Positions 22,075-58,287 of a DNA stretch of 64,000 nt are shown here, in pieces. Within the stretch, counting starts at the first letter, position 1. Each line of letters begins with the position of its first letter. Under the pieces are notes generated by a model. The model was not told the DNA's origin. It saw only the letters and a program-made list of their open reading frames with translations, and searched no databases. The position numbers and the translations under genes were made by a program. This DNA is from Auricularia sp. M13 (Eukaryota > Basidiomycota > Agaricomycetes > Auriculariales > Auriculariaceae): the NCBI GenBank assembly GCA_037042915.1, contig CM073193.1:4030001-4094000 (forward strand), written 5' to 3'.

Positions 22075-22322
22075 GAGCAACTTGCATGCAACGCTGCTTA
22101 TCCAGCCACGTTCTCTGACGGTTCATCCCATGACGTTGAGGCCGTCCCAGGAGTACAGATCATTCTGTGTAAATGTACTGCTATTACGAGAGTTTATCAT
22201 ACTACATACATGATGCGATTACTATGTACCTAACTAACTGTGTTCGATCTGAAAAGGCGATGGACAAGCAGCCTTTCAGAAAACTGCGTCCGTGAAGTAG
22301 AGGGCAACTGCATAAAATGTCC

Positions 22323-24990
22323 TTATGCCTGCTCCTTGACGGGTGCAGGAGCAGCCTTTTCGTCGTACCACGGCTATCGCAGAGGTCAAATTCCGTATAC
22401 TGAGTGAGAACATAGAGGCATACCTCATCAGGCGGACCACGGTTGACTACTGTCTTGCCGTCTTCACCCATTGCTGCTCCCTGGGTGCTCGTGGCCACGC
22501 CCATACCGCTGATGCGCGCTGCCTCCGCGCGTCCGATACCGAGGGCATCGTCCGCAATCCATACGACAGGTGCATCGCGCCATGCAGCAGGATTATCGAA
22601 CGCGTGCACGCCAGCGTCCGCAGACAGAGGGCGAGGCGGTGGCGGGTTCAGATTCTCGGTACTCTCGCCGGCAATAGCACCAGAGCCGGCGCCGAGGAAC
22701 GTAGCAGTCCGACGCGTGCGGCGGTCAATCCAGAACTGGAAGACGGCGGTGAGAACAAGCATGGCGATCTGCGTCAAACGAGTCAGCAACGTCAAGGTAG
22801 GAAATGCAGATGGGATACTGACCATAATGCCGCCAAAAGCGTAGCCAATAGCAGTTTTGCGGAGGATGAAGAGTGCGGCGAGGAAGATCTCCTCGACGTA
22901 CAGACCCGCGAAGACAGCGCCAAGAGCGTAAGGGTAGTAGAACCCATTCGTCTCGAGGTGAATCGGCTGCTCGCACACCCAGAGGAGCATGTACTTGTAC
23001 GTCAGGTAAAGCCTGTCCCAAACCGTTAGTACTTCAAATGACGACAGTTATCAAGACCGCATACAAGAAAAATCCAACGCAGGCGAAGCCCACAACAACC
23101 GGCTGCGCAACGGTGTATACAATTGCGATAACCGCTAGCAGAGCAACGGGAGGCCATGTGGTCGCGAGAGGAATGGCACTCATGCCATAATCGTACTTGA
23201 ATGCCTTGCGCGGTGCGTTGTTGCGAAGAATAAACGCGAGCTTTGTCATGACGAAGGGAACCGCACGCGAGAATGTCTTGGTCGCACCGCCAAGTGTAGT
23301 GGTCAAGATGAATGTCAAGACTGAAACTCAACGTCAGCCAGGATCGAGAACAGTTGATGGGGAACGCACAGAAGATGCTCGACTTGGGGAGCTTAGTGGC
23401 GAGCATCTTGGGCAATTGACCAGCCTCCTTGTCGATGTTTTTGAGGGCGGGAAGAATACCGCTCGCAAGGGCAATGATGAGGAAACCGTGGATGATCTGG
23501 AAAAGCCAGAAGCGGTTCCAAAGCTTGCGTTCGACGATGCTATGGCGCGGCTCGCCCTGGAGCTTGACGAGAATCCGAAGGTAGATGGGCAACACCATGA
23601 AAAGCACCGCGAGTAGCGCCGGCGGGAGAATACCTTGGATGATGCCCACGACTGCAGTAGGAAGCTTGCATATCCAGTTGAGGAACGAGACGGAGGAGCA
23701 GACGGTCGAGATATTGCTGACGACACCGACGAATGCGACCAGCGGCGCCCAAACGATGATGAGGCCAATCGTACCCGCCCAGCTAATGGCTGTGCGAATC
23801 ATTCGCTCCGCTGGCGACATGGCGAGGTTGTGCCAGATGACATCCTCAGCTACGACATCGGTGGTCACGCTGACGGTGCGTTTGCCTGAGTGGCCACGAA
23901 CGCCACTGGCAAACGCATGTGCGTCAGTGTGCTGAGGGAAACGCAGGAACGCGGAATTGGCCAGTGGGTACTTGGAAAGGTTGCTACGCTCGCGAGCAAG
24001 TTCCTCGGAATTCTTCTGGATGAGATCGGGGGTGTACTCGAGCGTGTCGACCTTCTTTCCGAGAAGACCAAGTGGCCCGAGACGATGCGTAGGGCGCTTT
24101 TTGACGGGGATATAGCGCGAAATGACGTCGTCGCTCTCGCGATCGGCACCGGGAGGCGTGGTCCCCTTCTTGACGTTCTTCGCAGCGAGAGTCTGCACCT
24201 TGGCCTCGGCGCCCTCGAGCTTGTAGACGGCCTTTTCACGGTTGTCGAAGAGCTTTCGAGCGCCTTGACCTTGCGTACGAACCAGACGTGCTCGACAGGG
24301 GATGCGACGAAGCCCGCGGCCTGGCGAATGCTGTCTTCTGTCTCCCAGTCCTTCGGAAGATTGGTGACCATGACGGAGCGGGAGCGCGGATCCGCTGCGT
24401 AGGCGGCGCTGGACAGGTAGCCAAGACGGACGCGCGCGAAGTGGTTGAACTCGCGCCACAACACGAACAGCGTCCAGAGGATAAGCGTGATGGCGACCAG
24501 CAAATGCGCGACGAGCCGCTTCTCGACGGCGACGTTGCCGATGGTGAAAATATCGAGGCCATTTGTATCCGCAGTCGTTGGTGGAACGGCGGCCACGGGC
24601 ATGAGAACAGCCCAACTCAGGAGCCAGGTCGGGAGCAGCAGGAAGACCATGGCGCGGATGAAGCGCACGAAGAAGTAGGCATCGACGCCGTTGACCTCTG
24701 CGACGCGGATGTCTGGTTCTCGCACGATGCCCGCGAACCAGCCGAAAAAGCTGGTCGGAAGGGCGCGGACGCGTTTCCTGTCTGCGAGTCAGTGTCGTCG
24801 GACGCGGAGATAGGGGGCCCGCGTACTCTGGGGCGCCGAGATAGGTCCTGGGCTGGAAAACCTTCTGGTCTCTGGCGTGCAGCGCGTAGAACAGGGTCAC
24901 GTAGACGCCGCCGATGACGAGACCGGTGATGAGGGCGGAGACAAACGTGCCCGTGTTGGCGACGGTGGTGTCTTGCCCGGTGGTGGCCAT
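22323..24990 (-). CDS. CSC1/OSCA/TMEM63-type mechano- or osmosensitive cation channel (DUF221)
   Basis: Multi-pass membrane protein with the three family blocks. The N-terminal membrane block starts MATTGQDTTVANTG, with helix TFVSALITGLVIGGVYVTLFYAL, and continues with KRVRALPTSFFGWFAGI and VNGVDAYFFVRFI. The cytosolic PHM7-type domain contains SVMVTNLPKDWETEDSIRQ, VEHVWFVRKVKALE and KLEGAEAKVQ. The C-terminal seven-helix block contains AEDVIWHNLAMSP, LIIVWAPLVAFVGVVSNIS, LRILVKLQGEPRHS and VCEQPIHLETNGFYYPYALG. The tail ends AAPAPVKEQA. At about 24253-24255 the conserved line changes frame (GAAAGC where GAAAAGC restores ALEKLFDNREKAV). About 860 residues, normal for the family. Likely in the plasma membrane or an endomembrane; calcium permeability is known for yeast Csc1 only. 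Confidence 0.9.
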
Positions 24991-25678
24991 GGTGGGAAAG
25001 ATGGGGCTGCTGGCGGTCGAGGGGCTGGGTCTGGCGTGTAAATAGGCTTGCCATTTCCTTCCGGACGGCCTTGGGTACTAAAATGACGTACTTTACGCGT
25101 CGCGGATCCCTAGCCCAGAACCGTATCGGACCCGAAGATAGCCAGAAATCGCATACACCGCCGTCGGGAGTGCCCAGCCAGCCCAGCCAGTAGGTACTAG
25201 ATACTGAGGTTGTGCGGTCAAGAAGCCTCCAGATGCAGTGCCGGGACAGCACGTGCGGGACGCGCAAAGCAGCGAGCTCAGGGGTAGACGTCGGTACGTA
25301 GCGCTCCCCGAGGCACACGACGTCACGCGTTCTATAGGCATGCAGAAGATCCAAAGCAGATCTCCCCGAAATGAGGGCAGCTCATTCACCCGGGTACCGT
25401 CAACCTCGAAGACGCAGGAACCATGTGCAGTACTCCAGCGGCCAGGGACCCTTCGCGATCGCAATACCCAGCTGAACGCGATCGACTAATAGGTCTCGGA
25501 GAGTGCGTGCACCCGCAACGGGCTAGACGGCGATACAAAGTGTAATACAGAAATGGGGCCCGGGTCTGAGAGTGAGAGTGACAAGTCGCGCGTCATGCGG
25601 ATCCAACCGTAAATTTCGCTTTCAAGAGGAAATAATACGCTACGCTGTGTACACGCTAACGTTGAAACCCCTTCAACG
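24991..25678. other. Intergenic, upstream of the CSC1-type gene
   Basis: 688 bp between the channel start codon and tRNA-Tyr. Open frames on both strands here overlap each other and show no family features or codon bias. It should hold the channel promoter. No TATA-like box or repeat stands out. Confidence 0.45.
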
Positions 25679-42722: not shown

Positions 42723-44468
42723 TCACTCTGTGAATTCCTTCCCGCCGTTCTCGAACTTGGCCAGCTCGTTCTTCCACGGCTCCCAAGAATTGCCGTATTT
42801 CTTCAGCAACCGCGAGAGTTCTGCCCTCTGCTCCTTCTGCGCTCGCGCGCGTCAGCAATGTAGAGCAGCATTCGTCCATGCAACGCACGATATTCCACGG
42901 CTCCTCGCCGGCATAGAGGTCGCCGAAGAGCTCGCGCAGTGGATACCGCTTGATCTTCTCGGCGCGCTTGAACGCGTTGAGGACGTCCTGCTTCAGGCGC
43001 GACTTGAGCTCCTCGTCCTCCTCGGCCGTCCACCAGCCGCGCTCCTGCAGGAACATGCGCAGGCGCACGTGCGGGTTGTCGATCTTCTTCCTGTCCTCGA
43101 CCTCCGCGCGCGAGCGGTATGCGAACGAGTCGTCCGACGTCGAGTGGTGGCCCACCCTTGTAGCGCGTCAGTATGAGTGCATATAGATGGAGAGCCAGAC
43201 TGACCGGTATGTCATGGCCTCGACGAGTACCGCGCGGCCCTGCTCGAGACAGCGCCGCCGCGCCTCCTTGACGGCGGCATATACCGCGAGAACGTCGTTC
43301 CCGTCGACGCGAATGGTGTCGATGCCATAGCCGGGGCCGCGGCTCGCGATGCCGTCGCCGTGGTACTGCTCCGCGGCCGGCGTCGAGATCGCGAAGCCGT
43401 TGTTGCGCGCGAAGAAGAGCGTCGGGGACGGGATCGTCGACGCGAGCAGCAGCCCCGCGTGGAAGTCGCCCTCGGACGCCGCGCCCTCGCCGAAATAGCA
43501 CACGGCGACCTGCGGTGGGAGCGGGTTGTCGCGCCGCGTCGCCGCGCGTTTGAGCGCGTACCCTACCCCCGCTGCTTGTGGGATCTGCGTGGCCAGCGGG
43601 GAGGAGATTGTCATGAAGTGGTGGGCTGGAGAACCAAATGCTAACGCGGAGAGGTCATTTGGACGGAGAGGTTGGAAGAACATGTCTGCGTACCACGGGC
43701 ATCTGTCGACCTTTCGTCGAGGTATCTTCGCTATTCCCCAGGCACTGCGCCATCACCGACTCGAGCGTAAAGTCGCGCCAGAGAAGGACACCGACTTCGC
43801 GGTACTGGCCAAGCACCCTAGATTTGACTGAACGGATGTCCGAGGAACCACACGACTGGAGACTTACTCGTCGGCCCCATCCAACGCTGCAGCCGATCCT
43901 ATTATGGATGCCTCTTCGCCATGCTACGCGAAATGAGATTGCGAAACCTTCGCAAGGATGCATAACCTCACCGATGTCATCTAAAGGGAATGAGCCACAG
44001 CCGACACGAGGACATATAGGGTACTGACATAGAAAGATATCTTGCCCTGCCGTTGCACGTTGTACAGTAGGTTGTCCAGGGCAGGAAGGAGCATCATCTT
44101 CTCGTATCTGCAAACCCTTCAGCAGACAGCGAATGAGCAGGATACAACGCACAATCTGCGTCCAAAGTCCCTGTCGATCTCAACACCGGACATAGCTGTG
44201 AGATCGCATGCTGGTGGCAGGGCACAGGGGAGCGCACCTCTGGCGCTTCTGCGCCGTCAATGACGCGCCCCTCTCCATCCAGAACGCGGAACGTTGGGAT
44301 AGGACCAGATGCCACGGAGTTGAAGAATTCGAGCTTCGGAGTGAGTGGCAAGCCCGTGTGCGGCAGACTCCCCAGCGAGTGAATGCTTCGTGCTCTTGCT
44401 GATGCAAGCGAGGAAGCAAGCACGCGCTGGCTGGCGCGTCGCAATGCTGTTGAGCTCAATGAAGCCAT
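42723..44468 (-). CDS. Branched-chain 2-oxoacid dehydrogenase E1 alpha subunit, mitochondrial
   Basis: ThDP-dependent decarboxylase subunit for Leu/Ile/Val breakdown. The start at 44468 gives a mitochondrial presequence ([20 protein letters not shown]). The mature part contains [85 protein letters not shown], the cofactor region [17 protein letters not shown] ... [31 protein letters not shown] and the phosphorylation-loop signature [14 protein letters not shown]. The last exon ends [12 protein letters not shown] at 42723. One T appears to be missing in an A-run at 43636-43638 (plus strand), breaking frame between QMPV and FGSPAHHFM. The junction after GAEAPE was not fully resolved. The E1-beta partner is not in this window. 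Confidence 0.92.
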
Positions 44469-44898: not shown

Positions 44899-47193
44899 AT
44901 GGCGACGCTGGCCATCGCCGTCCTGCGCGCGCTCTGGGACTTTGAGCCGGAGACGAGCACTGAGGTCCACTTGCACGAGGGCCAGATCCTCTTCCTGCTC
45001 GAACGCGAGGACGGAAAGTACGCATGCAGTGTCGCTATGCCGCCGGCCGATCGTATGTCGTTTACGCGCGTCGTACAGCCCATGGTGGACGGTCAAGGTC
45101 AACAACGGCGATCAGGACGAGGTCGGACTCGTGCCGGCTTCCTTTGTCGAAGAGGTGCGTGCCTGAGCCTCGTGGGCGACCTCGACACTGCTAACGACAG
45201 TCTCTAGGTCGCACCATCAGCCACAGTGTATGCCCAGGTCGACTTCGACAGCTTCCACGCGACAGAGCTGACCGTCAAGCGCGGCGAGGCCCTCTATCTA
45301 TTCGATGTGGAAGTGGACGGCTGGTGGCTGGCTCGCCGCGCCAGTCTTCGCGGCGGTATAGGCTACATACCGCGCCATGTTGTGGGCCCGTCTCCCCCGA
45401 CGCCCGTGGTGGGTGAACGCGCGGAACTGCTGCCCGATCCCCAGGTTCTGCACGACGAGCATGAACCTCGCATGATCGGCGCTTGGCCTGAGGTCTGTCC
45501 CGTTTGTGCGTCTGCTTTGATAGCGACCGACTGAGGTCTTTCTTGCAGGACTCACAGGGACGCTTGGGAAGCTATGATACACTGCTCGGTGGATGGCTCG
45601 TGGATCAGGATGACTCTGGTACCTCTCAGAAGAACGGCCGCGAAAGATTGGGCAGCTACGATACTCTGCTCGGTGGGTGGCTCGTAGATCAAGCTACCTC
45701 TGGAACCTCCTCCAAGCGACCCTCCGCGAACCGCTCCACTCCGGCGCCAACAGAAACAGTCTCCAAACCTGCCCGTAATGAACCATACGAACACCATGGT
45801 GCGCTCTCAGGAGAAGCAATGCCTGATGGTGAGGCGCTAGAAACACCACTAGACCTCGATTTCTAATAAATTTCAGCCGCAGATTCTCGTTTTGCATCGT
45901 CCCTTGAACGCCCATCATCGTCTCGTAAGGGGAAGGGACGGGAAATACGGGAAGTGAGCTCATTTGAAGACGACGACGATCCCGTGCCGACACTGTCACG
46001 AACTTCGAGATTCTCAGGGACCTTCTCTCCCACAGATGGGCCTGTCCCGTCTGGATCCAAGTTGAGGAAAGTCACACCAAAGAAGCTCTTTACCAAGATG
46101 GCCTCGCGCTTCGGGAAAGCCGGGTCACCCATCGCGTCCTCTTCAACTTCTTCGCCGATCGCACTGGACTCTGCGGAAAATGCACGGAAACGACGTGCAC
46201 AGGAAGACCAAGACCTCCAGCTTGCGCTGCTTATGCAGTCTCTTGATTCCGAGGGTGTCGATTATGTTGAAGACAATCTCGACCCGGACGTCATCAAAAG
46301 CTGGGTCGAGGACGGCACACTTGCGACACCCAACGGCCAGCGCCCCGTCGAGATCGATAATCGTCCGTTCGACTGCGGTATTGCTTGGAAACATGCCCAT
46401 ATGATGCTGTTTGTGCCATGCAGACTTGCACGCATAAAGTCTGCCGGGATTGTATGCGCGGCCACATTGTCTCTTCGCTCGAGCAGCGCAAGTACCCGAT
46501 CGTGTGCGCCATCTGCGCAGCCGACAGAAATGTCCGCGAGCCTTCAGGTGGGTGTTCCTTCCACGCCGTAACTGCTTACAAGCGGCTGATTGGTGCTGGT
46601 GCAGTCGTCTCGGAGTTGGATGTCGAGCTGGCCGGGCTCAGCGCGAAGCAGCTCAAAGTGTGGACGGATCTGCAGATGGCGGAAGTGAGCATTGAGATGA
46701 AATGCGCGAAGTAGGTCTTTTGTGTTTGCCGCTCTTTTTTCGTTTATTCAATTGTGTCGCAGATGCAAGAAGTCTATGAATGTCGACAGGGACGACTACA
46801 TGGCGATGAACGTCATCACCTGTCCTATGCGCAAGTGTCAGTATACGTGGTGCAAACGCTGTTTGCGCAAGGTGTGTTGTACGACTGCCCTTTCGATGCT
46901 CGAGCTCATACGGTCTGTGCCAAAGGTCGTGCCTGGTGTAGACCATACTTGCGGACAGGCGGAGCTGCAGAAGCTCATGAGCAGTAAGGGTTACCAATTC
47001 TGCCCTGGGTGTCTGACTCCCTGCGGTATGGATGGGTTTCTCTCCTTCTTTCATGAGACTCAACGAATGTGCAGAGAAAATATCTGGATGCAACCACATC
47101 ACCTGCAAAGTCCCCGGATGTCGTACTGAATTCTGCTACGCGTGCGGGAAGTCCACGTGTCGCGGCTGCAACTGGAAGCGGTTGCGAGCGTGA
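44899..47193 (+). CDS. SH3-SH3-RBR (RING-between-RING) E3 ubiquitin ligase
   Basis: One gene: two N-terminal SH3 domains (ALWDFEPETSTEV ... WWTVKV ... GLVPASFVEE; AQVDFDSFHATEL ... GWWLARRA ... GIGYIPRHVV), a linker with a 28-residue tandem repeat, an acidic/basic linker, then an RBR module. The SH3 and RBR parts join in phase by a GTGAGG...TTTCAG intron (about 45830-45879). RING1 reads CGICLETCPYDAV ... THKVCRDCMRGH ... CAIC. The IBR part has CAKCKKSMNVDRDDY, CPMRKCQYTWCKRC. RING2 reads FCPGCLTPC-EKISGCNHITC ... FCYACGKSTCRGC with the expected acceptor Cys in SGCNH. A one-base loss near 46381 (ATTGC for ATTTGC) breaks RING1. It lies 273 bp upstream of SLA1, same strand, and its SH3 pair resembles SLA1's. 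Ligase activity and targets are inferred. Confidence 0.83.
45564..45731 (+). repeat. Two-copy 84-bp tandem repeat inside the SH3-RBR gene
   Basis: Copies begin at about 45564 and 45648, 84 bp (28 codons) apart. Each encodes LGSYDTLLGGWLVDQ followed by a Ser/Thr-rich spacer with SGTS. The core peptide is identical in both copies while the DNA differs at third positions, so the duplication is old enough for silent drift and the peptide looks constrained. Confidence 0.85.
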
Positions 47194-47466
47194 GCTCAAA
47201 CAAAAACTCCAGACCGCTGCAAGAGCTGGTGCCTATTTTTGTCCGCAATATATGTCCTGACGCGATTTCTGGAAAGAAGAAACTTAGGATACTTGTGTGT
47301 ATAACTAGAAATAACCAGTGCGGAGTCGTTTAGCGCTAGGTGTATGTATTATTTTCCCATCGTGCAGAGCTAGGAGGGACCAGGCACATGTGCCATCAAT
47401 GTTCGTGCGGACAGTCTGTTTGCGGATGTATTTCGTGTGACGCCGACCTTCGACCTCTGCCTGACG

Positions 47467-50400
47467 ATGACCGCGACCACCGAGTACCTTGCTGTGCTCA
47501 AAGCGTCGTACGACTACGAGCCTCAGTCCGAGGATGAAGTCGCTATCAAGGAGGACCAGATCGTCTTCCTCGTAGAGAGAACGGACGACGAGTAAGGCGG
47601 CTGGCACAGCACATTGCGCGCTCTGTCTAATGGACTGTAGATGGTGGAAGGTCAAGGTCAAGCAGGATGGATTGGAGGACAAGGGCCCCATTGGGCTCGT
47701 CCCTGCTAGCTATCTGGAGGACGTACGTGTGCACGTTGCGCGTGATCCCAGTGCTCAGCCGTGCACAGGCAACGCCTATCTCCACCGTCAAAGCCTTATA
47801 CGACTACGAGGCAGCGGCTCCCGGAGAGCTTGCTATTCAGGAGGACGAGGAACTGCTAGTGTACGAGAAGGAGGACGAATGGATCCTTGTCAAGAAGACG
47901 ACGCAAGATAAAGTGGGCTATGTCCCCGCGAACTACTGCGACGAGGTACGTGTCTGCTGTCCATTCTTCGCTATGCATTCTCATTGTTATATTCCAGCCA
48001 GGCGCATCAGGCCAAGCGCAAGACGACGAGGAGGACGAGCCTTCCACGGTGCGCATCACCACATGCTGTAGCTGTGATGATGTTGACGGCGACCATAGCC
48101 TCCTCGACCCGTCAGCAACTATGTCGCTCCAGAGGCATTGGTTGCTGCAACTTCTCCAGCGAAGGGCAAAGGCGATGACGTCCAGACCTGGACCGTCTCA
48201 GAGGTCGATGCTAAGAACAAGAAGAAGAAAGGCACTCTCGGTGTTGCCAAAGGATCTGTTTTCTTCGCGAGCGAGAGCGACAAGGTAACGTCTTACCGTG
48301 CGGTTGGTTGTATGCTCGAGTCACCGACAACGCACATCAGACTCCCGTCCAGAAGTGGGACACGAAGGATATAAGATCTGTGAAGACCGAAAAGTCGAAA
48401 CATATTCACATCGAGATCGAGGGCGACAAGGCCGCGTCTCTTCATTTCCACGCCTCTTCTTCTAAGGACGCCGATGCGATCGTGAAGAAGTTAGAGTTGT
48501 CTAAGGCTCTGTCTATCACGCTCTCTCCTCCTACAAGTCCGACTGTTGAACGTCCTGCCGTCGTACGCTCACTACCCCACCACTGGCAGTCGATATACCC
48601 GAGCAGAAGCCAAAGATCGTGCACTTCAAAGATTCCCCGAATTCCATTATCCCCCCACCCGAGGATACACTTGAAGGCAGCGATGCCGGTGGTGACCAAG
48701 ACGAAGAGGGCGAGGCCGCCTCCGCTTTATACGACTTTGCTGCCGATGGCGAGGACGAACTGAGCGTCCGCGAGGGCGAAAAGCTGCGCGTCTTGGATCG
48801 CACGAACGAGGAGTGGTGGAAATGCCGCAACGTCTACGGAGCAGAAGGTGTGGTGCCTGCATCGTATATTGAGGTTGGTGCCGCTGTTCTGGCATTATTT
48901 CTTGCGCTGATCCGGATGCTAGTTGGAGGCCGGCGAGAGTTCTGCGGCGGCAGTGCGTGCGGAGGACGAGGACGAGGAAGCTCAACATGCAGCAGAAGCA
49001 GAGGCAGAGGCGCAGGCCGCTCGCGAGGCAGAAGAACGCGCCGAGCAAGAGCGTCAAGAAAAGGAGCGGAAGAGGAAAGAGGAAGCCGAGCGCAAAGCCA
49101 AAGCAGCAGCGGCGGCAGCGGCGGCAGAGCGCCAACGGAAGGCAGAGGAGGAGAAGGCTCGTCAAGAGAAGGCTCGTCGTGAGGCGCAGGCCAAGGCACG
49201 GCGAGACGAGTGAGCTGTCATGGTTGCAATGGCTTTGTTGATGGACACTTACAAACCACAGGCAGGAAGCAGAAGAACGAGAAGAAAGAGAGGAACGAGA
49301 GGAACGAGCACGGCGCGCGGCTGCCGCTGCCGCCGCAAAGAAGGCTCCTGTCCCGGAGTCGCGGCCGTCAACAAGCAGCGCAGGCTCTTCGAAGCGTCAA
49401 TCGAGGCCCTCCGAGGAGAAGCGCAGAAGCAAGTCTCTTTTTTTTTTCTTCCGGATCGCAAATCCTGATGTTCAGCAGAACCGTCGCCTTCCAAAGTGCG
49501 GACATGGCACGACCGTACTGGGCAGTTCCAGGTCGACGCAGAGTTCCTTGGATTCAACAACGGCCTGTTGCGACTTCACAAGACTAACGGCGTCATCATC
49601 GAAGTTCCTTCGGACAAGATGTCTGCGGAGGACATGCAGTTTATCGATCGGCAACGTCGCAAAGCTGCTGCTGCTGCACAGCAGGCCAAAGATGATGACG
49701 ACCTTCCGCTTGGTGCCCTCCCGGCCGCGCAGGGGAAACCGAAGCCCGCGCCAGCACAGTCCAAATCTCTTCCACAACCGAAGAAGGGGCCATCAACGGA
49801 TTGGTTCGAATTCTTCCTCAATGCGGGCTGCGACATCGATGATTGCACTCGCTATGCAGCATCATTCGAGCGTGACAAGATTGACGAGGCGATTTTGCCG
49901 GACATCAAGGAGTCGACCCTGCGCTCACTTGGTCTGCGTGAAGGCGATATTATCCGAGTGACCAAGGTCATCGAGCAGCGACGGGCGCAGAACCGTCAGA
50001 CTACCAAGCCCGAGGTTGCGCAACAGTTGCGCAGCGATGAAGAGCTCGCTCGCCATTTACAGGCGGAAGAGGATGCTGGGATTGCGGCGTCCGCCGTGGT
50101 TGCGAAGCGAAGCAACACGACCAGCCCGGCTCCAAATCTGTTTGCTGGCCCCGACGGCGTGCTGAAAGCAGCGCGTCGTGGAAGGCCGCCTACCAGCAAG
50201 ACTGCTCCGCCGTCGAGTGTTGATGTCGCAGCGATCGGCAATGGCAACGCGCCTGAACCTTCGCCCTCACCCGCGCTTTCGCCCCCTCCGCGCATCACGA
50301 CTTCCCCTTCTCCCGTGGTACCTCCCAAGACCGTTGGCGGCTTCGACGACGACGCTTGGACTGTGCGCCCGTCAAAGTCGCCCGCGCCACCTGCTGCTCA

Positions 50401-51448
50401 ACCGCAAGCTCCGGCTGCCCCACCAGCGCCCACGCCTCCTCCCGCTCCTCCGGCTCCGGCGCCGCCCGCGCCTTCTACACTCTCTGCTCCTGCTTCTACG
50501 AATCCTACAGGGTCTTCTCAAGATGAGATCACTATGCGCCTACTTGCCAAGATTGATTCTTATCGTCCTCCTTCTGCGCCTACACCTGCGACGACTCAGC
50601 CGTTGGCGACATCTCCGCCCCCATCCATCCTCACACCCCCGGTCAGCTACCAATCTGGCTTGGGCATGGGTTCGTCACCGGTGCCCATCGGCCAACATTT
50701 GCAGCAGCAGCAGACCGGCTTCTTGCCCAGTGTCAGCCCACGAGGGCCTCTCGCGCCCGTTCCCCAGAACCAGGGTTTGTTGCAGCCGCTCGTGCCAACG
50801 ACAACGGGTTTCAATGGCTTCGTTCCTGCGCGGCCTGCAAGCAACCCACCTCCTTCATTCCAGTCGTCGTCGCCTTTCCAGTCGCAGTCGCCGTTCCAGA
50901 CGAGTCCGTTCCAGAATCCGTCGGGATTCAACTCGCAACCGCTCCTGCCGCAAGCAACGGGTTACATGAGTGCAAGCCCGATGCAGTTCCAGCAGACTGG
51001 TATGCCTCAAAGTGGACTCAACAGCTTTGGGTCTACATCATCCTTCGGCTCGCCGTTCGCGGGTGGTGTCCAGACCAGTATGTCGGCCACTTATTCCCCC
51101 CACTGCCACTGACATTGTATAGACCCGACGGGCTTTAATCCGTCCTTCAATACCGGGTTCTCCGCCCCACCTCCAGTCCCCCCGCTCCCAACGTCCGTAT
51201 CGCCCGCCAATGCTGCCCCTGCCAACATCTTTGCGGCCATGAAAGCGGGCACATTCGCATCTGAGGACAACGGGTCGCAAACTGCCGGTTCGTGGATTTT
51301 GCTGAAGAAACATTTCTTCTCGTTAACTCGCTCTGTAGACTACGATGCGCTGCGACAGCCCATGGGTATGGCCGCACAGCCAACTGGATATCCAGTGAAC
51401 GGGTATCAGACCAATGGATTCCAGACTTATGGCTTCCAGCAACGTTGA
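47467..51448 (+). CDS. SLA1: Actin cytoskeleton-regulatory / endocytic adaptor Sla1
   Basis: Clathrin-coat adaptor that links cargo, actin nucleation and the Pan1-End3 complex at endocytic patches. Domain order matches Sla1. SH3-1 (MTATTEYLAVLKASYDYEPQ ... EWWKVKV ... GLVPASYLED) and SH3-2 (VKALYDYEAAAPGE ... VGYVPANYCDE) come first. A PH-like part follows (DVQTWTVSEVDAKNKKKKG ... KWDTKDIRSVKTEKS), then SH3-3 (ASALYDFAADGEDEL ... GVVPASYIE) and a long charged coiled coil. SHD1 (VRTWHDRTGQFQVDAEFLG) and SHD2 (STDWFEFFLNAGCDID ... IIRVTKVIEQR) follow. The Pro-rich tail carries LxxQxTG-type motifs (LLPQATGYM, QQQQTGFLP). It ends FQTYGFQQR at 51448. The intron before SHD1 (49429-49475) is GC-AG. 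No frame break noted in the parts joined. Confidence 0.93.
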
Positions 51449-54500: not shown

Positions 54501-57500
54501 AAGGGGTCCGGATATGCCGGCGAGTACGGGCATCCAAGCAACCTCGAACATCGGCTTGACGTGTACGAAGTGCGAAGCGCTGAAGTACTGGTCGCTCTTG
54601 GAGCCTTTCTTCTGGGCGCGCATCATGGTGCGGAAGAGTTGCTAATTCGCAAGATCGTGAGTTACAACTCAGGGTGAGTCGCTGAAAGCGGACCTCTGTC
54701 TTGTTAGCCATGCCACTTGATTGCAATGCATAGGCCTCCTTCTGCAAGTCGCGTCCCAGTGAAAGAGCGCCGAGACCGGCACCAGGCACAACCTTGCCGG
54801 TCATTGCCTCGACCTCGTCCTTCATGCGGAATCTCATTGTGGACGATATCATCGTAGATTTCGTTCAAGAAGTCCTCTGGAAGGTCGGTGCCATCGTTGA
54901 TACCCCTGTTATTCTTCAAGAAGTCGGTCTTGGTCATGCGCTTCTTGACTTGTGGATTGTGCGCATCCGTGTTGAGCAATATAACCGAATATGAAAGAAC
55001 ATAGGCCGCGTCTACCACATGTCATAAGCCACATGTTTCGCTGCGGTGCTCTCGAACTCACCAGCATTCTTGAATGGAGTGGTTGTCTTGCATTCCATAA
55101 AGCGCGCGGCGAATTTCAATACGTAGCGATCGATTTTCTGCGCCTCGCCGGGAAGTCGGAAAGATTGCAACAATAAGCGCAAAGACTCCAAGAAATTGAG
55201 CTCTGTGAAGTCCAGCATGTCGATGAATGCGTGCATGACGGCGACATTCAGGTCGTCTCTGCGACCATTAATGATACAGTAGTTTTATGCACTACCAAGA
55301 CTCACGCTTCGCCCATATATTCGCCGATGGCTGCCTTGCTGAGACCCTCCGTCTCCAAAAGGAACTTTGCAATATCATGCGGAGTATTACTCGGGATGAA
55401 GCCTGTGGCCAAAAGAATTCGATGCCCTAGAAACTGAGTCAATATCTCTAGACAGGCCAGCATCCAACGGAACATACCTTCTTCGGCTTGAAGTTAAACT
55501 TCTTGATGCCTTCGTTGAGCGTCGTCTTCATTTGCTTTGCGCTCTCGAACTTGCCAGGGTCGTCGATGAGATCAGGCGTCGATACACGAGCAAGCGAGTC
55601 CGACATAGACATGCGGTCCGCCAGGTTCGGCTCGCTCACAGACGCATCGAAACTGGGTCGCGAGCGCGTTTGTGTTTGCGGGTCGACGGATGGGTCGGTA
55701 ACGGTGCGACCGGCGGTTGTGCCCCACGCAACGAGCGATCGCAGAACGAAGACGAGGCATTCGAGGCTCAGTCGTCGCAGGTTCGCTTCGTTCTGATAAG
55801 CGCCGTCCTTCGCTTCTGGTTGGTGTCCCATCGCCGTAGTGCTCAGACTTGGAGGCACAGCCGAATTCTTCGCATGCGAATGCGTAGCTGCCACAGGACT
55901 GGCGGGATCCGGTCCGCCTTTGTGCTGAACTGGCGTATGCGTGCCAATCTTTGAGATGACATTCATGAGCCTGCAAATTGACTTAGAACACTCAGACGTG
56001 AATAATAGGCGATGCTCTACCGTTCGTAGATGTTGTCGATGGCATCCTTGTCGCAATCATAGTTGAGATAAATCTCGACAAGTGCTTGCGGATCCTGGCA
56101 CAGCCGCGAGAGCATGTTGAGAAGTACGCCCTTCTGCTTAGCCGTCGCATTGCGCATTTCCAAAATTGGGATGAAAATCTCGTTGAGTAGCACCTCAATT
56201 TCGCGCTGCACAGAGATTATTAGCATATGCTTTCTGGAGCGGCTTGGGGTGACGGCGCACCTTGAGTTGTTTGCGCATGCCCGACAGAACGCGCCAGAAG
56301 ATCTCTACGCTGATTTCAAACACCTGCGGCACTGGGCTGACGGCGTTGCGACTCAAGGCGAGACATAAGTACTGCTTCGTCGCCTGAATAAACGGTGTGC
56401 TTTCGCGCGAGGACGAAGAGTAAATGTACGACGAAGGGCTGACGAAGATGTTCATGTGGGTGTTCAAGATAGTCTGCACGAGGTGCAGCGACAAAAGCTT
56501 GGAGCGCATCGCGTGCGACTTCAAGTCCCGCTCGCTAATGGAACCATTAGAAGACGATCCGCTCTTGTGGAGCATAGCAACATACCTCTCGGTATTGAGG
56601 GGCTTCATCGTCAACTTGCACAATGCACGGAATACCAAGAATGCATCCTTCAAGAAGAGATCGTGGTCGGAAATGGCACGCGGCTCCTCCGGCTCGTGCT
56701 CGGGCACTTCATCATTCGGGTTTGGTTTCTCGAAGGTGTCGCTATGCAAGTGGTTAGACGAAATTCGCGCAGCACGATAGAAAAGCCTACAGTGATATGA
56801 CAGGCGGGTGGGGAGAGGTCGCACTCTCCGGTGGACCTTGCTTCAGGTCCACGGCGGAGCCGTTTGCGTGAGCTAACCCATTCGCAGCAGAACCATTCGC
56901 CACGGACGTCTTGTCGACCTCGGTAGTACCATCCTCGGTTGATACAGGTTCGGAGACCATGGGCGTGTCCGGTTCAACCAATGTGTCGTTGATCGTGTCC
57001 ACAGCAGTAGATGTCGTAGAGGTGCGTCTCAGGGACGATGATGGTCGCGCCGACTCGGGATACGGGGAAGTCGCACGAGACGATACAGATGTCCTCGGAA
57101 GACCGTCCGGCCCAGATGCACCTGAACCCCCTGGGACCGCAGACTCTGGTGCACCATTCGCTGTGCCCGCGTTACATCGAGCGAAGACGTGGTTGACAAT
57201 TTGCGTCAAGCCTCCTTGTGCCACTACCTGATTGACAGGGTCCTGACTGAGAAGGAAGACGTTGTAGACGGTGCGGACGGCCTTGAGCAGTGACGAATGA
57301 TGCACGTGCATGACTGGCGAAAGCACCAGTGCGAGGAGCGCCTTGACGATCTGTAGCGAGACCGCGTCCGGGGTAGACTCCGTATAACAAGAAGTGATAG
57401 TATGCGTGACCAGGTCGACGAGGGGTAGAGTCGCGGGTTGTGCGGGCGCGCTCGATGTCGTGGGAGAGGCTGGCGGAGAGTGGTAGTCTTCGCGCGCAGC

Positions 57501-58229
57501 ACCGTCTTCAACGAGGAACGAATAAGAAATGAGTTTCGATATGCAGTCCAGACTGGCGATCATGAGTTTCTCATTCCGCGTCTCGCAGGCAAGTCGGAGG
57601 GGCTCGAATATCTCGCGCGGTTTGTCGCCTCCCAGACCCGCCTTGATCATATCGAGGGCGCGCTGGCAGCTGTCACGCAAGGGCGCGGAGCGACGTGCCT
57701 CCTTTGATGCAGCAATAGTTTCCAGTGCGGTCGAAATGAGGACCACAGAGACTGAGTGGCCGTGCGCAAGCGCGACAGAACGATGCTGAGCGTGCTGGGG
57801 ACCAGGGTGGGTGGCCTGCAGCTTTGGAGTGGCTGGAGGACTGGTCGTTGATTTCCTGGGTAGGGGAGGCAGCTGTGGTGACTGTGGAGTAGCGTGGTGG
57901 CCGTTCGCTGTTCCATTAGTAGACACCACCTGCTCGCTGGGTGTCGACGCGTCAGGCTGCACTGGCGCGTCATCCCGGGTTTGCTCGGCGGCGTCTGTGG
58001 GTACGGATATGGATATAGATGGCCCTATACGAGGCTTGCCCGACTCTGTGCGCTCGAACGTGGGCGGTGCTGGAGCATTGTCGGGCTCAGGTTGAGCCGC
58101 AGTCTGAGGCTGGTCCTCGCGTTCTGCGGGCTCTTCGTTCGTATCTTGGGCCGGCGCAGGGGCCTCGTGGTACTCTGGCGGCGGGCCCTGGGCCAGAGGC
58201 GACGCTGGAGCTGAGCCAGTGTCGGCCAT
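51573..58229 (-). CDS. SEC7: Arf guanine-nucleotide exchange factor Sec7 (BIG family)
   Basis: Large trans-Golgi Arf-GEF of about 1,900 residues. The start at 58229 (MADTGSAPASPLAQGPP) opens a disordered Pro-rich N-terminus, then the DCB domain (SVSVVLISTALETIAASKEA, VDLVTHTITSC) and HUS domain with LMIISVQREIEVLLNEIFIPIL and IYLNYDCD. The catalytic Sec7 domain follows, with FNFKPKK, the Glu-finger loop GLSKAAIGEYMGE (about 55317-55355), FTELNFLESLRLLLQSFRLPGEAQKIDR and SYSVILLNTDAHNPQVKKRMTK. Downstream HDS repeats run to the C-terminus (KLKIDSQGKNIAAWSPVV), and the last exon ends VGVAKGIAVA at 51573. The exchange Glu is present, so the enzyme should be active. The first exon is long (about 1.4 kb); the rest is split by many introns. 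Divergent from DYS1 with only 58 bp between starts. Confidence 0.93.
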
Positions 58230-58287
58230 GACACGGGTGGATGGGAAAGTGAAACGGGAGCAAACACGTTATAACTTGGCACCAAAA
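58230..58287. promoter_or_regulatory. Very short divergent intergenic region, SEC7 / DYS1
   Basis: Only 58 bp separate the two start codons. GC-poor compared with the flanks, with no obvious TATA element. Each gene's 5' UTR and core promoter must overlap the other's leader or coding start, or use a downstream in-frame ATG. Confidence 0.7.

Follow-up and report, generated by a model that had tools for sequence, protein, structure and literature searches.

A gene beside SLA1 in Auricularia sp. M13 that appears to join a SLA1-derived SH3 domain to an RBR ubiquitin ligase module

In the basidiomycete Auricularia sp. M13, a gene coding for two SH3 domains and an RBR-type ubiquitin ligase module is located directly upstream of SLA1. 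Both genes lie on the forward strand of a 64,000-nucleotide stretch of contig CM073193.1 (C1:4030001-4094000; hereafter the window, to which all positions refer unless a contig is named), and genomic searches were made within the assembly of 52.1 Mb and 14 contigs. The model of this SH3-RBR gene, with introns placed by eye and by frame, spans 44899..47193 and contains eight GT-AG introns of 48-61 bp. Its predicted exons are 44899-45017, 45079-45154, 45208-45492, 45549-45828, and 45877-46382 before a break in the reading frame that is discussed below, and 46382-46547, 46605-46710, 46763-46871, 46926-47025, and 47075-47193 after it; the second coding piece is read from 46382, with one base shared between the two pieces and none added. 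The N-terminal part carries two SH3 domains (Pfam SH3_1, two stretches, 4.5e-19), namely SH3-1 (44917..45154) and a divergent SH3-2 (Pfam match span 45232..45372). They are separated by a linker of about 300 residues from the RBR module, which comprises a RING1 coding stretch (46374..46516), the RING1-IBR linker and IBR (46605..46952), and RING2 (47001..47193). The neighbouring SLA1 (47467..51448) encodes SH3-1, SH3-2, SH3-3, SHD1, and a SAM-like region that scores slightly below the cut-off; its SHD1 (3.3e-29) is the sole match to this domain in the genome, and none is present in the upstream gene. An earlier note, made from the sequence of this stretch, had placed the two genes head to tail and 273 bp apart, in agreement with the stop codon at 47191-47193 and the SLA1 ATG at 47467.

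The closest relationship between the two genes concerns their first SH3 domains. A profile search retrieved at least 32 SH3 matches in this genome, and 31 domains were used for scores and trees, after splicing of the intron-split domains by a profile-guided search; the SH3-1 of the upstream gene was not among the 32 matches and was added, while C11:2036805, whose translation is the same as that of C11:423035 over the stretch shown, and C9:2272363, whose splicing is not settled, were left out. The two C11 matches, on one contig, could represent a recent duplicate or an assembly duplicate. Among the 31 domains, the SH3-1 of the SH3-RBR gene and the SH3-1 of SLA1 are reciprocal best matches, with a score of 146 against runner-up scores of 102 for the upstream domain and 116 for that of SLA1. 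The same wording of the two domains, already pointed out in the earlier note, is thus far above chance, as the maximum in 1000 shuffles was 49. The two domains are sisters in both of our trees (ultrafast bootstrap 82 and SH-aLRT 88.5 in one, 82 and 87.8 in the other), which overlap in data and are not independent. A nearer relationship to another SH3 family, which would have contradicted the earlier note, was not found for SH3-1 within this genome. The SH3-1 of yeast Sla1 falls beside this pair at just 48/78, and its grouping with the SLA1 SH3-1 alone was not rejected (p 0.314); therefore, the duplication cannot be dated.

The intron positions point in the same direction. From the common AVL, the first exons of both genes are co-linear without gaps up to a phase-2 intron inside SH3-1 (45018-45078 in the upstream gene, 47592-47640 in SLA1), and in both genes a phase-0 intron follows directly after the domain (45155-45207 and 47723-47768, respectively), as previously noted; the linker between SH3-1 and SH3-2 is also of equal length. 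The further claim that the phase-2 intron occupies the same place before the WW of the domain holds when counting from the 5' side, where it falls in the same codon, and fails when counting from the 3' side. Indeed, beyond the intron the upstream SH3-1 has one extra residue (N-P-W-W versus E-W-W) and lacks three residues in a later loop, so that from this side its intron lies one codon further from the WW. None of the eight other SH3 domains with a placed internal intron has one at this site and phase. Together, the reciprocal best match, the sister position in the trees, the common introns, and the adjacency of the genes make it well supported that the SH3-1 of the SH3-RBR gene derives from the SH3-1 of SLA1 by duplication.

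According to the gene model, the SH3 half and the RBR half would be carried on a single transcript, and this depends on a 48-bp phase-1 intron (45829..45876) that contains in-frame stops. If it is not spliced, these stops separate the two open stretches, and the locus could instead hold two genes wrongly joined, one for a protein with both SH3 domains and another for an RBR protein whose start would be inside the exon at 45877; an in-frame ATG is indeed present upstream of RING1. The other RBR genes would fit such a division, since no SH3 was found in seven other IBR-matching loci of the genome (regions of 4.5-7 kb; best E 0.88), in a profile scan that did recover the split halves of SH3-1 in the window (E 3.7e-08 to 4.4e-05). 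Nevertheless, the intron has GT and AG ends, a CTAAT that we take to be a branch-like site, and a size like that of the other seven (48-61 bp), and the phases agree across the exons. We therefore consider a pair of wrongly joined genes unlikely and retain the single SH3-RBR gene. Its 422-residue N-terminal part, searched against the genome, matched only itself, and a NCBIfam search gave no match. A UIM-like helix ahead of RING1 (DLQLALLMQS) is not claimed here, as no Pfam UIM match was obtained at E up to 1.

The linker contains a 16-residue motif, RLGSYDTLLGGWLVDQ, twice (45561-45608 and 45645-45692, thus within 45561..45692 of the forward strand), with the copies 84 bp apart. They differ at eight bases, all silent, without any amino-acid difference, and under random placement of the changes the protein was kept in only 1 of 200,000 cases. 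Because this 16-codon window had been picked for its identity, the test was redone on the whole 84-bp unit, aligned without gaps, which shows 25 base differences and changes in seven of its 28 residues. Random placement, under a model that is uniform and without transition or codon bias, gave as few amino-acid changes once in 100,000 trials and a silent run of this length twice in 100,000. Therefore, the silent-only change between the copies indicates that selection acted on this reading once the repeat had formed; as judged from the two copies, it shows constraint for the past and not for the present strain. The 11-residue core pattern of the motif is absent elsewhere in the genome in an exact pattern search. 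The motif could possibly be a short binding motif.

Regarding the RBR half, the C6HC set of the IBR is present, as judged by eye on the spliced piece. Pfam IBR_1 matches this part in two stretches (1.2e-6), and the best stretch lies over RING2. RING2 keeps the catalytic cysteine and the Cys-x-His pattern (CPGC...GCNHITC, hence Cys-Asn-His), is interrupted by an intron at 47026-47074, and ends shortly after CRGC. Among solved structures, this RING2 is nearest to parkin and ARIH1 (best 6.8e-6); of the two best structure alignments, one is to a chain named parkin and the other to SD01679p. In the genome, the nearest relative of the RBR half is a gene at C1:4353430-4354191 (minus strand, at a distance of 276 kb on this contig, and one of the seven loci mentioned above), which carries RING1, IBR, and RING2 with identities of 39%, 40%, and 63%, respectively. 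In a comparison that covered the introns of the IBR and RING2, both share a phase-2 intron within the first IBR cysteine pair (46711-46762 in the SH3-RBR gene), and probably also a phase-0 intron (46872-46925) three residues past an IBR cysteine pair. Because of this identity and of the common intron sites, the RBR half was most likely acquired, at the genomic DNA level, from the RBR gene family of this genome.

From these observations, we are inclined, with little more than even confidence, to regard the gene as a chimera of a copied SLA1 5' end and an RBR module, whose product would likely be an adaptor-guided RBR ligase. A copy of the SLA1 5' end, including SH3-1 with its intron and probably SH3-2, would have come to stand immediately ahead of SLA1 and, with its introns retained, have been fused at the genomic DNA level to an RBR module of the resident type. 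In the resulting protein, SH3-1 would dock on a proline-rich partner of the Sla1 type (WASP/Las17), RING1 would receive the E2~Ub, and the RING2 cysteine would hand the ubiquitin to the docked partner or to a neighbour. Consistent with such docking, the groove aromatics of SH3-1 look intact (ALWDF, WW, VPASF), and there is one WH1 (WASP-type) match in the genome.

Several observations weigh against this reading and must be considered at each of its steps. The tree support for the SH3-1 pair is moderate, with only 59 columns kept in the second tree, and a myosin-I-like SH3 domain (C1:9075147-9075233) is split in phase 1 by an intron in the codon immediately preceding its WW, so that the intron spot is not unique and is by itself no proof. 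Since SH3 domains are also short, the resemblance of the two SH3-1 could in principle reflect convergence or general SH3 likeness, with an accidental adjacency. Nevertheless, the large margin of the reciprocal best match, together with the equal intron codon and phase, the equal boundary intron, the equal spacing between the SH3 domains, and the adjacency itself, makes such a coincidence very improbable. The derivation of SH3-1 from SLA1 is therefore maintained. The second SH3 domain behaves differently. The SH3-2 domains of the two genes are not best matches in either direction: their score is 65, the SLA1 SH3-2 ranks only sixth for the upstream SH3-2, and the latter is closest to C9:2483836 (score 92). 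In the trees, the upstream SH3-2 has no secure place, and its grouping with the SLA1 SH3-2 was not rejected (AU p = 0.365). Moreover, the alignment shows valine at two positions of this domain that we take to be usual groove aromatic positions. The tandem duplication of the SLA1 5' end proposed in the earlier note is thus well supported for SH3-1, and for SH3-2 it is neither demonstrated nor contradicted; given the weak likeness of the second domains, a duplication of the SH3 pair, in which SH3-2 was copied from SLA1 along with SH3-1, is plausible from position only.

Similar reservations apply to the RBR half. Its IBR_1 match (28.7 bits for the whole piece) exceeds the cut-off of 27 by just 1.7 bits. 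The second intron match with the relative 276 kb away needs a GC donor in that gene, where a GT alternative of the same phase lies five residues beyond, and the RING2 introns of the two genes differ. The scans of other sequence collections provided no relatives from other species: one scan of viral_contigs for relatives of the RBR piece gave no pattern match, and in one scan of genome_contigs with the SLA1 SH3 pair, 33 stretches matched the pattern and none was confirmed.

The remaining difficulty is the reading frame of RING1, which shifts at 46382/46383, between zinc cysteines 1 and 2. The eight RING1 zinc ligands are therefore not found in one frame, and all of them are legible only across two; the complete RBR module described in the earlier note was not recovered in the sequence as assembled. 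An intron does not explain the break: with lengths below 400 bp, AG acceptors as far as 46500, and either GT or GC as donor within 46200-46383, 40 frame-compatible candidates were listed, all of which would delete the segment containing the second cysteine or more. In addition, any intron leaving RING1 untouched would need its acceptor at 46361-46382, and no AG is present there. The stretch with the break occurs once in the assembly, so that no duplicate is available for comparison. Two readings remain, a one-base sequencing or assembly error, or a real lesion; only the first of them would leave a working gene in the sequenced strain. If the lesion is real, the locus would be a recent pseudogene, in which a chimera that once coded for a ligase was lost in this strain or species. 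The failure of every intron tested to bridge 46382/46383 without losing RING1 favours this possibility, as does the single-copy nature of the stretch. So does the state of the surrounding assembly: a frame change in SLA1 near 48,560, considered as a second break, was rejected, as a 44-bp phase-0 intron (48563-48606, GTACGC...GAGCAG) rejoins the frames there, and thus no second nearby break points to poor assembly, one such frame change having been followed up. In contrast, the two coding pieces, of 1266 and 600 bases, contain no further stop, the IBR and RING2 ligands are kept, and the repeat copies of the linker differ mostly silently, which speaks for function in the past. The loss of one base is, besides, a common assembly error. 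A recent pseudogene thus seems to us improbable, albeit to be taken more seriously than the wrongly joined genes discussed above; were it correct, the locus would document a chimeric ligase that persisted for some time before its loss.

Returning to the chimera as a coding gene, its cellular role can be outlined from its parts. The E3 activity is predicted from the RBR module, and the ubiquitination targets are predicted as well; action on endocytic or actin-patch proteins, or on WASP partners, may follow from the docking of SH3-1. According to two publications, RBR ligases act by a two-step reaction and Sla1 interacts with ubiquitin (PMC4276913), and in yeast Sla1 counts as one of the SH3-containing interactors of Las17 and is named a negative regulator of it (PMC3620054). 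More tentatively, and with a confidence that remains well below even, this lineage could have evolved an SH3-guided RBR ligase that shares the docking sites of Sla1 on WASP or other actin-patch proteins and ubiquitinates them, bypassing Rsp5. In yeast, ubiquitin acts in endocytosis mainly through this HECT ligase. If true, RBR chemistry would be linked directly to clathrin-actin endocytosis, instead of through Rsp5. A ligase born beside SLA1 and carrying the SH3 of SLA1 itself would also be a clear example of how the targeting domain of a pathway member can be copied and fused to an enzyme while the parental gene remains adjacent. A prediction of this proposal is that the two neighbouring SH3-1 domains have common ligands.

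Other genes are located in the vicinity. The divergent neighbour of the SH3-RBR gene, on the minus strand (43171-44468), contains a dehydrogenase E1 domain (E1_dh, 1.3e-41); its likely start, placed by eye at about 44468, is about 430 bp from the start of the SH3-RBR gene, and the two could share a promoter region. On the other side, a minus-strand gene with a Mon2/Sec7/BIG1-like DCB domain (56790-58268, 2e-20) is another trafficking gene near SLA1. A calcium-dependent channel or CSC1-like gene, with RSN1_7TM and PHM7 domains, is present on the minus strand at 22205-25077.

Among the open-licence papers listed in a literature search, two of whose listings gave 15 of 114 and 10 of 13 papers, none dealt with an SH3-RBR ligase, with fungal RBR ligases, or with RBR-SH3 proteins in endocytosis. 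The gene is best compared with four known systems. With Sla1, it shares a pair of equally spaced SH3 domains at the N-terminus, as well as the wording of SH3-1, its intron site and phase, and the boundary intron as found in the SLA1 of this genome. In contrast to Sla1, it lacks the third SH3, SHD1, SAM, and the C-terminal part, and has an RBR module instead. With the RBR ligases, such as parkin, ARIH1/HHARI, and the RBR genes of this genome, it has in common the IBR and a RING2 with the catalytic Cys-x-His, and with the gene 276 kb away one intron site clearly and another probably. Unlike them, it presents an N-terminal SH3 pair, a short end after RING2, and, as assembled, a frame-broken RING1. 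SH3RF/POSH shares the idea of an SH3-guided ubiquitin ligase. However, it has a single RING instead of an RBR, and its SH3 domains come after the RING. Finally, yeast Lsb1 and Lsb2 are SH3 proteins of the actin patch that, like the proposed ligase, combine binding to Las17 with a connection to ubiquitin, but in their case the ligase is a separate protein, Rsp5, of which they are substrates (PMC3620054). An SH3 domain built into the ligase itself would be a different solution from that of Lsb1 and Lsb2 as substrates of Rsp5.

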